Origin: an uncultured SAR86 cluster bacterium
GTDB taxonomy: Bacteria > Pseudomonadota > Gammaproteobacteria > Magnimaribacterales > D2472
Direction of reading: 5' to 3'
Length of the DNA: 64,000 bases
Assembly: GCA_902594515.1 (NCBI GenBank)
Contig: CACJML010000002.1
Span: forward strand, 64,911 to 128,910
In this document: piece after piece, positions 18,022 through 22,979 of the stretch
How positions within the stretch are numbered: the first letter of the stretch is position 1
Layout: every line of letters starts with the position of its first letter
Made by a program: the position numbers and the translations under genes
The notes under the pieces: model-generated
What the model was told of the DNA's origin: nothing
What the model saw: only the letters and a program-made list of their open reading frames with translations
The model's database searches: none

Positions 18022-18111
18022 TGGCGGAGAGACGGGGATTCGAACCCCGGATACGGTTGCCCGTATACTGCCTTTCCAAGGCAGCGCATTCGACCACTCT
18101 GCCATCTCTCC
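18022..18111 (-). tRNA. tRNA-Ser (anticodon GGA)
   Basis: A 90-base class II tRNA with encoded CCA. Acceptor GGAGAGA pairs with TCTCTCC. The anticodon arm is CTGCC-TTGGAAA-GGCAG with anticodon GGA. The long variable arm TACGGGCAACCGTA and T loop GTTCGAATC are present. It is intact and is the ancestral downstream neighbour of pgl; a truncated copy of its 5' half lies at 21595-21635. Confidence 0.97.
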
Positions 18112-18243
18112 TTTTATTCGACTAATAAAATATCTAGATTATCTGCCTTTTCTGTAAGAGCATCGATCGGTAGCGAGGTGGCATTATCTCTTTTTGTCTT
18201 GAGCAAATCTACTTTTTATTGACCGCTAATGAGTAAAACAATT
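18071..18243. repeat. Left direct repeat flanking the R-M island (tRNA-Ser 5' half + pgl 3' end)
   Basis: Aligns without gaps to 21595-21767. By eye about 83% of positions match over 173 bases, including the two-base spacer between the pgl stop codon and the tRNA start. Similarity stops in the tRNA anticodon stem on one side and inside the pgl coding sequence on the other. Confidence 0.85.
18114..18243 (-). pseudogene. Truncated 3' fragment of pgl
   Basis: Reads as the last 42 codons of 6-phosphogluconolactonase (VLLISGQ ... DALTEKADNLDILLVE), ending two bases before tRNA-Ser. The codon for the Glu after SGQ is a TAA stop, and about ten residues differ from the intact copy. No upstream pgl sequence remains; similarity ends where the R-M island begins. 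A relic, not a gene. Confidence 0.85.
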
Positions 18244-18321
18244 ATTGTTTAAGGTATTTAGAAAATCAAAAATATTAAATCTGGTTGAATATCCAACATA
18301 CTGGAATACTATAAGGCCATA

Positions 18322-19461
18322 TTAATTTATAGATTTTTCGAAACCATTTATTTGTCTATGTTTTTTTAAATAATCTTTTCTTTTATCATTTAGAAAAGCC
18401 TTATTTAGACTTTGAGTTATAAATACTTTTCTCCACTCATCTGGCACATTGTCACTTATAAGAACTTTACCATTATCATCAAAGCTTATTTTTCCAGAAT
18501 CAAAATAATAATCAGCATTTTCTCCTAGAAGAAGACCATTATCTACATCATACTCTGCTTCGTCATCACATTTATTATATGCCCAGATATGGCTAGCTAT
18601 AATCTTTGCTTTTGACATTGGGAGATTACTTAACATACATTTACATCTTGAATTATTTTCTGCAAGACCTAGTACTTTGTTTGACTCAATAATTAACATG
18701 TCTCTATATATCTGTTGTTCTGTTTGTGATCTAGGGGGTTTATTTTTTGACTTTGATATTATTTGAATCTCATCATCATCATCACGAAAATGTAATACGT
18801 TATCAATAAATACTATATATTGATCTAAGCATTTCAACATGCTTCTAAAATGGGAAACCTGATTGTACTTTCTATTGATAGCGCCTATTTTTCTAACAAA
18901 ATCCTTTCTTTCTTTTAGCTGATCTATAGACAAAAAATCATTATATTTCTCCGGATTTGTGAACATAATAGCCAAAAGTTCTTCATTATTAAGCTTCTTA
19001 TTATTTTGCAGTGTTCTCAATAAAAATTTAACTCTATTTCCTTCATAACTGTCTTTATTTTTAACTGAGGCATTGAACTGATTATTTTCAAGGAAAATCT
19101 TTGCTTGATATGTATTCCTCTCAAATTCAGAACTAGAATCAAGATATAACCTTGTGAGAGGGTGATATGTTTTTAGTTGAGGATTTACGAACCCGTTTTT
19201 AATCCATGTATTTATTTCTTTTCTTGCATTTGGAGGTCCATTTTTTTTGTCCCAGTTATTAAGCTTTATTATTTTTCCTTGCAACTTTTCATAGCTTGAA
19301 GGGTTTTTGTTATCATTTTGGACGTATGCATCTCTCTCATCGATTGCATCAATAATTAACAAAAGCGATTTTAAAAACTTCGGATTTTTAAAGTTTGTTT
19401 TAGCAGCAGTATATTTCCAATATTCCTCATATTTTTGATTTATTCTATTTTTATAATTCAT
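18322..19461 (-). CDS. HNH restriction endonuclease (putative)
   Basis: 379 residues. The C-terminal quarter is an HNH domain: a CKCMLSNLP start near residue 273, SHIWAYNKC with His291, DNGLLLG with Asn308 and ADYYFDSG with Asp317, then KISFDDNGKVLIS. This SHI...NGLLL...FD.G.ISF pattern is the form found in HNH restriction enzymes. The N-terminal 270 residues are helical and unfamiliar, probably the target-recognition part. The start overlaps the m6A methyltransferase stop by four bases, so it is the third gene of the operon. Cleavage of unmodified DNA is inferred from context. Confidence 0.82.
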   Translation of the reverse strand: MNYKNRINQKYEEYWKYTAAKTNFKNPKFLKSLLLIIDAIDERDAYVQNDNKNPSSYEKLQGKIIKLNNWDKKNGPPNARKEINTWIKNGFVNPQLKTYHPLTRLYLDSSSEFERNTYQAKIFLENNQFNASVKNKDSYEGNRVKFLLRTLQNNKKLNNEELLAIMFTNPEKYNDFLSIDQLKERKDFVRKIGAINRKYNQVSHFRSMLKCLDQYIVFIDNVLHFRDDDDEIQIISKSKNKPPRSQTEQQIYRDMLIIESNKVLGLAENNSRCKCMLSNLPMSKAKIIASHIWAYNKCDDEAEYDVDNGLLLGENADYYFDSGKISFDDNGKVLISDNVPDEWRKVFITQSLNKAFLNDKRKDYLKKHRQINGFEKSIN

Positions 19462-20468
19462 CTTGAGGCTTTAAATAAATATTCTTTGTTTGTCTTTTTA
19501 TTCTCCTTTCCAGTAATTTGATAGTTGTGCTTTTTTTCTAAAAGCTCAACGCGTTTAAAATACTTTTTAAGTAGATTAAGCATAATGTCTTTTTTAGGGG
19601 AAGATTTACTATTAAAGCTTAATAATAGATGTTTAAAATTACCTGAACGAGAAAATAAATAATCAAAATCATCAATTACTTTACTTCTGTCAGTAAAATT
19701 ATTAGGAAATGGTTTTATTTTTTTTTGAGCAACAAATTCATCTAAAAAACCATAAAAGCCAAAATAATCATTCATAGTTCCCGGATATGGCGGATCCAAG
19801 TAAATAATATCAGCATCTACCTTATCTATTACATCAAATATATTCTTGTTCATTGCTTTATTTTTTTTATTATTATCAAAAATGGCATTGTTATAGGCAT
19901 CAACTTCATCTAAAAAGTGGCATTTAAAGCTTTGATTATGGTATGACCTTTTTCTTTTATATTTCTCATAACTAAAATTTTCATCTCTTAGCTGTACGAC
20001 TTTTTTCCATAAAATATTGAACCTAGAGTAAGGCCTTTTTCTTATCATTGCTCTTCTCATCAATGAAATTGCTAGACTCTTCTTGTATGAATTTTTTATA
20101 TTTTTATTTATGTTTAGCCAATACTGATCAAGCTCCATACATTCTTCTGGATAAAAATAAACTTCTGAGTAATTTCTATAAATAAAACCTTTTTTTGGCT
20201 CTCCTTCAAATATCTTAAGAAGATCATTTTTGTTAAGTTTAAATTTATTATTCTGTATTAAAGCCTTTGCAAGATGATAATTTATTTCTAAGACATCATT
20301 AGAAATTACTTTATAACCAAGCTGCTTTGCCCTGAAAGATATTGAGCAGCCCCCAGAAAAAGCATCAAAGATAGAAAATGTTTTTTTTGGAAAATTTGAA
20401 GTTATCCATTCATTAACTTTTTCTTTGTTTCCAATAAAATTTACTTTTGGGAACTTAGCTTGCATCAT
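19458..20468 (-). CDS. D12-class DNA adenine-N6 methyltransferase
   Basis: 336 residues. Motif I is FDAFSGGCSISF (around 34-45), preceded by the NFIGNKEK block seen in Dam-like enzymes. The catalytic motif IV is YLDPPYPGTM (DPPY at 225-228), which marks an N6-adenine methyltransferase of the alpha/D12 class. The segment between them is the recognition domain. The start lies 14 bases inside the end of the m5C methyltransferase. Probably protects one strand of the site cut by the HNH nuclease. Confidence 0.92.
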   Translation of the reverse strand: MMQAKFPKVNFIGNKEKVNEWITSNFPKKTFSIFDAFSGGCSISFRAKQLGYKVISNDVLEINYHLAKALIQNNKFKLNKNDLLKIFEGEPKKGFIYRNYSEVYFYPEECMELDQYWLNINKNIKNSYKKSLAISLMRRAMIRKRPYSRFNILWKKVVQLRDENFSYEKYKRKRSYHNQSFKCHFLDEVDAYNNAIFDNNKKNKAMNKNIFDVIDKVDADIIYLDPPYPGTMNDYFGFYGFLDEFVAQKKIKPFPNNFTDRSKVIDDFDYLFSRSGNFKHLLLSFNSKSSPKKDIMLNLLKKYFKRVELLEKKHNYQITGKENKKTNKEYLFKASR

Positions 20469-21450
20469 TATTCATCTCTATAATGCATTCAGCAATTTTT
20501 TCTGCTAGTAATGGTGGAACTGCATTACCAATTTGTTGCTGTTGAGATATTTTAGATCCTTTAAAAATAAAGTTATCAGGAAAAGTCTGAATTCTTGCAA
20601 GTTCTCTTACTGTTAACGCCCTATTTTGATTGTAATGAAATACTTTTCTCATATCTCCAGTTATACAAATACTAGGTTTTGATGATGCATAGCGGATATA
20701 TTTTCTGACATCCCCAGACTTAGGTCTAATTTTGATAGGAATAAAACTTCTATCTCCTCCATCAGGAATGAAGCTCATTTTTTTGAGCATTTGCTCGGTG
20801 TGTTTCATGGACTCATGATTAATGATGTTAGATCTCATTCCGTTATCGAGCCTTGGTAAATCATCTATAGCTTCTTGAACAGATTTTTCCTTGTTAGCAC
20901 TTTTATATGGAAAAATTATTTCCTTATTTTTTTTACTACCAATAAAAAAAACTCTTCTTCTTTTTTGAGGAATTCTAAAATCGACTGCATTTAATACTTT
21001 GCAAGCGACATTAAATCCAATCTTCTCAAGAGATTTTATAATCTCATTACGAAATCTTTTATTTGAATAGAGTCTTTCAACATTTTCCATAACCACATAA
21101 GTAGGATCTATTATTTTGGTAACTCTTATAAACTCTTTGAAAAGATAGTTTCTTTCATCATCGATAAATTTTCTTCCAATGTTTCCGGCAATACTAAAAC
21201 CTTGGCATGGAGGGCCACCAGCGACAATATCTATTGAATCATTTCCAATAAATTGTAATATTTTTTCTTTTTTTAATTTTTTAATATCTTGAACAACTAG
21301 ATTATGTTTTGGAAAATTTTCTAGATACGTCTGAGCAGAACTTTTATCAAAATCAACAGAAAAAATGTTTTGAAATCCTTTATTTTGAAATCCTAGTGTA
21401 AGTCCTCCAGCTCCGCTAAAAAGGTCTACAAAGTTAATATTTTTATTCAT
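20455..21450 (-). CDS. DNA cytosine-C5 methyltransferase
   Basis: 331 residues, first gene of the R-M operon. Motif I FSGAGG (11-16), catalytic motif IV GGPPCQGFS with Cys82, motif VI MENVE (121-125), motif VIII PQKRRRVFF (161-169) and motif X QQQQIGNAVPP are all present in order. It is therefore a complete Dcm-type enzyme. The target-recognition domain between VIII and X is only about 100 residues, typical for a single specificity. Pairing with an m6A enzyme suggests an asymmetric target modified differently on each strand. Confidence 0.95.
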   Translation of the reverse strand: MNKNINFVDLFSGAGGLTLGFQNKGFQNIFSVDFDKSSAQTYLENFPKHNLVVQDIKKLKKEKILQFIGNDSIDIVAGGPPCQGFSIAGNIGRKFIDDERNYLFKEFIRVTKIIDPTYVVMENVERLYSNKRFRNEIIKSLEKIGFNVACKVLNAVDFRIPQKRRRVFFIGSKKNKEIIFPYKSANKEKSVQEAIDDLPRLDNGMRSNIINHESMKHTEQMLKKMSFIPDGGDRSFIPIKIRPKSGDVRKYIRYASSKPSICITGDMRKVFHYNQNRALTVRELARIQTFPDNFIFKGSKISQQQQIGNAVPPLLAEKIAECIIEMNNDAS

Positions 21451-21594
21451 TAAAATGATTCTAACGTAAATTGAATTAATTTAATCTCATTTGTTACCAT
21501 CCTAATTGCTTTAGGTTCAGCAAGGGTCTATAAGTTGGTTCCTGCACTGGCTAGGTAATAATTGTCTCCTAATTGAGTAGATGTTCTAGCAGTT

Positions 21595-21635
21595 GCTTTC
21601 CAGAGCAGCGCATTCAATAACTCCGCCATCTCTCC
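21595..21635 (-). pseudogene. Truncated tRNA-Ser relic (5' half only)
   Basis: 41 bases matching the 5' acceptor strand, D arm and anticodon region of tRNA-Ser(GGA) with about seven mismatches. Sequence beyond the anticodon stem is unrelated, so no tRNA can form. It sits two bases after the intact pgl stop codon, marking the pre-insertion junction. Confidence 0.8.
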
Positions 21636-21767
21636 TTTTATTCTACTAATAGAATCTCTAGGTTATCTGCATTTTCTATGAGAGCATCAATCGGTAGTAA
21701 GGAGGTATTATGTCTCCTTGTCTTCAGTAAATCTACTTTTTCTTGACCGGTAATTAATAAAACCATT
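21595..21767. repeat. Right direct repeat flanking the R-M island
   Basis: Counterpart of 18071-18243 in the same orientation. It contains the tRNA-Ser relic and the 3' end of the intact pgl gene. Confidence 0.85.
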
Positions 21768-22276
21768 TTCCTAGATTTCAAAATTTCATTAAGTGATAAG
21801 GTTATTCTTGGAACTTCTGGATATCCGGAATCTACTCTGATAATCGGATCAGTGGAATTAATTGCCTCATCAAGATTAGACATATATGGAAAAATAGACG
21901 CAAAATGTCCGTCTGTTCCCATTCCTAGAATGGCAAGATCATGTGATGCAATTTCATTTAGTTTTGAAGGTAAAGATAAATCGTGCAAGCTTAAAATTTG
22001 ATCTTGATTATAAGTATTGAGGTATTTTCTTATCATTCCTTCATTAGAAAGCGGATCAACAGTTGGCACCCTCCTCTCATCAGAGGGTATAAAAGTACAC
22101 AACTTACTTTGCTGCGGAAGAGATCCAAAGGATGAATAAATTTCTTTAGGCGTACTGCCTCCAGATAATAAGATACTTGCTTTAGGATTATCATTAATTG
22201 TTTGTAGTAATAAATCTAAAACAAACTGATTTAATGACTCAATAGAATTAAAGTTTTTGCTATTGGAAAGTGTCAT
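21638..22276 (-). CDS. pgl: 6-phosphogluconolactonase
   Basis: About 212 residues from the ATG at 22276; a TTG at 22306 would add ten unsupported residues. Hydrolyses 6-phosphogluconolactone in the oxidative pentose phosphate or Entner-Doudoroff entry. Family motifs: ILLSGGSTPKEIY near residue 35, SDERRVP...SNEGMIRKYL, and LGMGTDGHFASIFP, which carries the conserved active-site region. It is the last gene of a long minus-strand run and overlaps queF by 17 bases. Its 3' end is duplicated beyond the R-M island. Confidence 0.93.
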   Translation of the reverse strand: MTLSNSKNFNSIESLNQFVLDLLLQTINDNPKASILLSGGSTPKEIYSSFGSLPQQSKLCTFIPSDERRVPTVDPLSNEGMIRKYLNTYNQDQILSLHDLSLPSKLNEIASHDLAILGMGTDGHFASIFPYMSNLDEAINSTDPIIRVDSGYPEVPRITLSLNEILKSRKMVLLITGQEKVDLLKTRRHNTSLLPIDALIENADNLEILLVE

Positions 22277-22979
22277 GAATATTCTTTTTAGGATATTTCT
22301 TTGCAAGGGATCGAATTGGATTGATATCTATTCCACCTCTTCTCATAAATCTTCCAATTACAGTTAGTGATTTAAGATTAAAGGACAAGCTGAGATGCGA
22401 ACATATATCTTCAATGCAACGCTCATGAAATTCGCCTTTAGTTCTATATGTCAACAAGTGATCGATAATCTCCTTACTTGGAGTTACTTCACTTTTGTGT
22501 TGAATGTAGATTGTTGCAAAATCTGGTTGAAAGGTCACCGGGCATAAGGATCTAAAGCCCTTGAATCTAAGTAAGTTACCATTATTTTTTTGCTCTTTAA
22601 CATAACGCAAACTCTTTGGTTTAACAGAGTAGTTTTTTCTAACCATTACCTTAACAATAACATTTGATTTAGTGATATTTGACAAGTCTTTTTTAATCTT
22701 AGCAATAATAATATTTTGTGTTGATCTAAAGTCGCTGTACGAATTTAAGTACAACTTCAGTGATTTTGACTCAACAGTTTTTTCTGAACTTGCTGGTATT
22801 CTGATTTCTAATGGCAATAACATGGGTTGATAGCTTTTTGATAAGAAATTAAATTCATATGCGTTCCAGATATCCTCTCCAAACATTTCTTTTGAGGGCT
22901 CTCTATTGATTGCATCAAGTATGTTCTCGCTGGGAGATTTAAAGGTTGTATTTTTTTTACCTAAGAATTTAGGTTTCAC
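22260..22979 (-). CDS. queF: NADPH-dependent 7-cyano-7-deazaguanine reductase QueF
   Basis: 239 residues, long (unimodular-repeat) QueF type. Reduces preQ0 to preQ1 in queuosine synthesis. Motifs: substrate-binding ESKSLKLYLNSY, the catalytic-Cys region RSLCPVTFQPDFATIYI, the conserved FHE, and RRGGIDINPIRS at the C-terminus. The canonical CPVTGQPDW form is here CPVTFQPDF, a mild divergence. Overlaps the ABC permease by four bases. Confidence 0.95.
   Translation of the reverse strand: MKPKFLGKKNTTFKSPSENILDAINREPSKEMFGEDIWNAYEFNFLSKSYQPMLLPLEIRIPASSEKTVESKSLKLYLNSYSDFRSTQNIIIAKIKKDLSNITKSNVIVKVMVRKNYSVKPKSLRYVKEQKNNGNLLRFKGFRSLCPVTFQPDFATIYIQHKSEVTPSKEIIDHLLTYRTKGEFHERCIEDICSHLSLSFNLKSLTVIGRFMRRGGIDINPIRSLAKKYPKKNIHDTFQ

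Follow-up and report, generated by a model that had tools for sequence, protein, structure and literature searches.

A probable Type IIS restriction-modification operon of the HphI/NgoAXVI family in an uncultured SAR86 cluster bacterium

Described systems and the operon in the window

NgoAXVI of Neisseria gonorrhoeae comprises two methyltransferases (MTases), which produce 5mC and 6mA, and a restriction endonuclease; its SMRT motif is GGTGA, with 6mA in the forward strand and 5mC in the reverse strand, the middle cytosine of the complement being the most plausible 5mC (PMC6789123). A meningococcal remnant of the system is broken by a truncated galE (PMC7973814). S.NgoVIII is called homologous to HphI in the title of Gunn and Stein 1997, as cited in PMC7973814, and HphI of Haemophilus parahaemolyticus (site GGTGA) is given as a Type IIS system with an HNH nuclease where PMC4081073 cites Cymerman et al. 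2006. HpyAV and Hin4II, which recognize CCTTC, also combine a C5 MTase and an N6A MTase (fused to each other in HpyAV) with an HNH nuclease that follows them (PMC2816704).

The window, i.e., the whole stretch of 64,000 nucleotides analysed here, derives from an uncultured SAR86 cluster bacterium and carries an operon of three genes in the order C5, D12 and R, all on the reverse strand:

20455 to 21450, minus strand: C5-cytosine DNA methyltransferase, 331 aa, ORF intact, PF00145 match
19458 to 20468, minus strand: D12-class N6-adenine DNA methyltransferase, 336 aa, ORF intact, PF02086 match
18322 to 19461, minus strand: HNH-type restriction endonuclease, 379 aa, ORF intact, PF13391 and PDLC03529 matches

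The C5 and D12 genes overlap by 14 bp, and the D12 and nuclease genes by 4 bp. An overlapping operon of this composition had been claimed in an earlier, sequence-only reading of the same DNA, and the intact ORFs bear it out: HMM searches of all three proteins against Pfam and PADLOC return a C5 MTase, a D12 MTase and a Type II restriction endonuclease, and the combined Pfam, NCBIfam and PADLOC calls are C5-cytosine MTase, D12 adenine MTase and HNH nuclease. No promoter or terminator signal exceeded the shuffled expectation.

The characterized relative was found by tblastn against plasmid records, in the N. gonorrhoeae entry NZ_CP119142.1 (L024), where ORFs for a C5 MTase (333 aa), a D12 MTase (337 aa) and a nuclease (396 aa) follow each other in the same order and with the same overlaps of 14 and 4 bp. 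The gonococcal nuclease and D12 MTase score 750 bits against PDLC03529 and PDLC03385, which are also the best models of the corresponding window proteins. We read the ORF upstream of the gonococcal operon as galE and, from gene content, order and neighbourhood, we infer that this operon is NgoAXVI and that NgoVIII and NgoAXVI are one and the same system. The record itself represents the N. gonorrhoeae chromosome (2.17 Mb), although it is filed as a plasmid and has only 17 annotated features.

The window operon shares with NgoAXVI (S.NgoVIII) three homologous genes, their order, both overlaps and the PADLOC models of nuclease and D12 MTase. It differs in its host, its genomic site and its sequence (identities of 54, 50 and 32% for C5, D12 and R, respectively), and specificity has been measured for NgoAXVI only. 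The likeness to HphI, a Type IIS system with an HNH nuclease, runs through S.NgoVIII and a literature title. The sequence-only reading had drawn an analogy with HphI without claiming its specificity; the relationship proves to be closer and amounts to homology, as each of the three proteins is homologous over its full length to its counterpart in the gonococcal m5C/m6A/HNH set. The two MTases belong with that set and not with unrelated orphan enzymes. In our assessment (probability of about 0.85), the operon belongs to the HphI/NgoAXVI family and encodes an intact Type IIS restriction-modification system that is probably active, would recognize GGTGA and was acquired horizontally. As such it would be an ordinary member of its family, leaving the known picture of such restriction-modification systems unchanged while adding a bacterium with a small genome (1.36 Mb) to the hosts of this textbook Type IIS system. 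The size and GC content of the host genome may point to a streamlined planktonic lineage.

The three proteins and their relatives across phyla

The C5 MTase matches DNA_methylase (PF00145, E 4e-76) and, over its full length, the PADLOC Type II MTase model PDLC03234 (E 3.5e-103); its identity to the N. gonorrhoeae homologue also extends over the full length (54%). The motifs DLFSGAGG, GGPPCQGFS, ENV, QKRRR and GNAVPP are all present, and the catalytic GGPPCQ and ENV are intact. In C5 MTases, target recognition sits between motifs VIII and IX. This interval, residues 208-274 of the window protein, is 63% identical to the N. gonorrhoeae sequence, compared to 51% for residues 1-172; the corresponding family means are 69% and 54%, and long invariant stretches in the interval are common to 71 C5 sequences.

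The D12 MTase matches MethyltransfD12 (PF02086, E 3e-29) and, again over its full length, the PADLOC Type II MTase model PDLC03385 (E 2.5e-121), and it is about 49-50% identical to its N. gonorrhoeae homologue (48.6% by tblastn). The D225-P-P-Y228 motif is unchanged in 72 sequences, and residues 136-200 form the best conserved part of the protein (66%). In the D12 tree, the window sequence is paired with a Pelagibacteraceae sequence, a grouping whose support is not strong (89/93), and it occupies a long branch (0.77). Its position among other phyla is as expected for horizontal spread. A search of phages for D12 relatives returned a single one, with 30% identity, and scans of viral contigs with D12 and the nuclease yielded no relatives.

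The nuclease aligns with its N. gonorrhoeae counterpart at 32% identity across 373 aa (E 5e-44), the various comparisons giving 31.4-34%. It matches HNH_2 (PF13391, E 3.5e-5) and, over its full length, the Type II restriction endonuclease model PDLC03529 (E 1e-50), and is built of a C-terminal HNH domain and an N-terminal part of approximately 240 aa without a matched fold. Examination of a 63-row alignment, from which three rows from plasmid records were left out, shows invariant residues at S290, H291, N308, D317, D321, G331 and R361. By analogy with other HNH enzymes, H291 is likely to be the general base and N308 would be the central HNH asparagine. The third HNH position is occupied by Asn (N315) in the window protein and by Asn, Thr or other residues, mostly not His, in its relatives.

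The confident AlphaFold model of the nuclease (mean pLDDT 88, pTM 0.87) was compared with the PDB using Foldseek; the matches are confined to the HNH domain, and the N-terminal part is thus left without a template. The best match is VcaM4I (PDB 6yex), a modification-dependent HNH nuclease with a similar C-terminal HNH domain (sequence E 1e-10, Foldseek E 2e-5). The likeness does not extend beyond the HNH part, and the window enzyme has a different N-terminal part and MTases of its own. A modification-dependent nuclease of the VcaM4I type was therefore rejected on two grounds, the restriction of the match to the HNH part and the presence of two cognate MTases.

Scanning of genome contigs with the D12 alignment gave 80 loci in named records, distributed among Bacteroidota, Campylobacterota, Bacillota, Pseudomonadota (including Pelagibacteraceae and SAR116), Patescibacteria-type genomes and one Nanoarchaeota bin. 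The C5 MTase, the D12 MTase and a related nuclease occur together in most of these loci, and in nearly all of those with a contig of sufficient length to show the set. Preservation of the three-gene set across phyla indicates that the arrangement in the window is not due to chance. The order C5-D12-R is mostly kept in Proteobacteria, Bacteroidota and Campylobacterota; in several Bacillota loci the R gene comes first or is convergent. The C5 and D12 genes are fused in three loci (L026, L062 and L083).

Some loci depart from the common plan. In Sellimonas caecigallum (L128:3816-6005) an HphI-type nuclease and a C5 MTase are joined in a single ORF of 729 aa, and in a Lachnospiraceae bin (L110:3799-8112) two HphI-type nuclease genes stand one on either side of the C5-D12 pair. 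Two bins, one of Gracilibacteria (L069) and one of Flavobacterium (L090), seem to have split C5, D12 or R frames; the Gracilibacteria lineage may read TGA as Gly.

Recognition site and competing explanations

The presumed target-recognition regions of both MTases exceed the catalytic cores in conservation, which leads us to predict the same specificity, GGTGA/TCACC, as in NgoAXVI. Retention of this site is the best prediction that the sequences allow. For the nuclease the site is less certain than for the MTases, given the 32% identity overall and the 33% identity of its N-terminal part to that of the N. gonorrhoeae enzyme; with this lower conservation, the prediction for the nuclease depends on its having to agree with its MTases. 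In the proposed mode of action, the HNH nuclease would bind the asymmetric GGTGA and probably cut a few bases downstream, outside the site. The two MTases may share the protection of the site, with m6A placed by the D12 enzyme on the GGTGA strand and m5C by the C5 enzyme on the TCACC strand. If each strand is marked differently in this manner, the daughter duplexes would each keep one marked strand after replication. The prediction offered for the methylome is consequently m6A in GGTGA, as the putative product of the D12 MTase, and m5C in TCACC, as that of the C5 MTase.

An operon of the same family and architecture could instead recognize a shifted asymmetric site, to which the two MTases and the nuclease had drifted together. 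The low identity of the nuclease (32%) to its characterized relative would fit such a shift, as would the long branch of the window D12 MTase (0.77) and its grouping with Pelagibacteraceae without strong support. The carrier genome also shows no avoidance of GGTGA (O/E 0.97, z -1.3, rank 173/512): O/E came to 0.97 over 1.09 Mb of the carrier and to 0.93 over 0.8 Mb of a genome of the same genus in which the operon has no match, and thus showed no avoidance specific to the carrier. Taken by itself, the missing avoidance neither supports nor refutes GGTGA specificity. We nevertheless consider a shifted site unlikely, because the presumed recognition regions of the MTases outdo the catalytic cores in conservation, the reverse of the usual pattern of specificity change, and because many residues of these regions are unchanged from Bacillota to Neisseria.

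Membership in the HpyAV/Hin4II group, with CCTTC as the site, would account for the chemistry (C5 MTase, N6A MTase and HNH nuclease) and for the order in which the MTases precede the nuclease, both of which are as in the window (PMC2816704). HpyAV is, however, reported to be homologous to no known restriction endonuclease except Hin4II (PMC2816704), a description that sets this group apart from the window nuclease, a full-length homologue of the nuclease of the gonococcal GGTGA system; this assignment thus appears very improbable. That two independent orphan MTases merely lie beside an unrelated HNH nuclease is hardly credible at all: nothing was found in its favour, members of the three families accompany one another in nearly all sampled loci from several phyla, and both C5-D12 fusions (L026, L062 and L083) and an R-C5 fusion (L128) exist. 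The reading of the operon as an HphI/NgoAXVI-type system specific for GGTGA accordingly remains the preferred one.

Insertion at the tRNA-Ser/pgl junction

Nobusato et al. in 2000 and Furuta et al. in 2010 reportedly described restriction-modification genes inserted with a long target duplication. According to a review, the insertion of some restriction-modification systems is accompanied by target duplications that are long and variable, on the order of 100 bp (PMC3874152; also PMC3031569). The window operon lies within a segment of this kind, the features of which are as follows:

18244 to 21595, no strand: inserted segment, 3352 bp, absent in four same-genus genomes
18072 to 18243, no strand: direct repeat, left copy, 172 bp, consisting of the 5' 40 nt of the tRNA-Ser gene and a dead 3' fragment of pgl
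21596 to 21767, no strand: direct repeat, right copy, 172 bp, consisting of the live pgl 3' end and a dead 5' fragment of tRNA-Ser
18022 to 18111, minus strand: tRNA-Ser (GGA), intact, the insertion target (ARAGORN; Rfam tRNA at 18025-18111)
21638 to 22306, minus strand: pgl-like gene (6-phosphogluconolactonase family), 3' end duplicated (PF01182, E 7.5e-33)

The GC content of the insert is 0.287, compared to 0.354 for the window. In four same-genus genomes (G398-G401) the site is empty: the flanks are contiguous, they overlap by exactly 172 bp, and there is one copy of the repeat. Each copy in the window retains one live function, the intact tRNA-Ser on the left and the end of pgl on the right, and the other halves have decayed. 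A flanking repeat together with single-copy empty sites is what defines an insertion with long target duplication, and both are found here. In the preferred reading, the operon was acquired horizontally, and 172 bp of the tRNA-Ser/pgl junction were duplicated on its insertion. The flanking repeat and the neighbouring tRNA-Ser are additions to the sequence-only reading.

Like other insertions of this type, the present one is characterized by the lack of a transposase, a duplicated target on the order of 100 bp and an empty site in relatives. Unlike the published cases, it concerns a 172-bp duplication of a tRNA-Ser/pgl junction, with copies that have diverged to 84% identity. The 16% divergence implies either an insertion of some age or the arrival of one copy with the incoming DNA. 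Inverted repeats near the insert are weak and do not lie at its ends. With its four empty sites, the locus provides a clean case of long target duplication accompanying the insertion of a restriction-modification unit. A more far-reaching combination, in which a new asymmetric site has arisen with the HphI-type architecture kept and the operon is mobile as a self-contained restriction-modification unit, with long target duplication and without transposase or integrase, appears quite improbable.

Among six other same-genus genomes, the D12 gene has no match; the C5 gene has only distant relatives, in two of the six, with 38-42% identity along part of the sequence. A same-order genome (G443) carries a D12 gene with 34% identity that fits another MTase model, PDLC03261, and was rejected as a member of the same system. 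The locus L022:678-2511 of a same-order genome contains two adjacent adenine-MTase-like ORFs, the second of which fits a different MTase model, with no nuclease within the stretch examined. At the right-hand flank of the insert, the pgl-like ORF shares 47 bp with a QueF-like ORF (22260-22979); because its listed start codon is TTG, the true start of the pgl ORF is uncertain.
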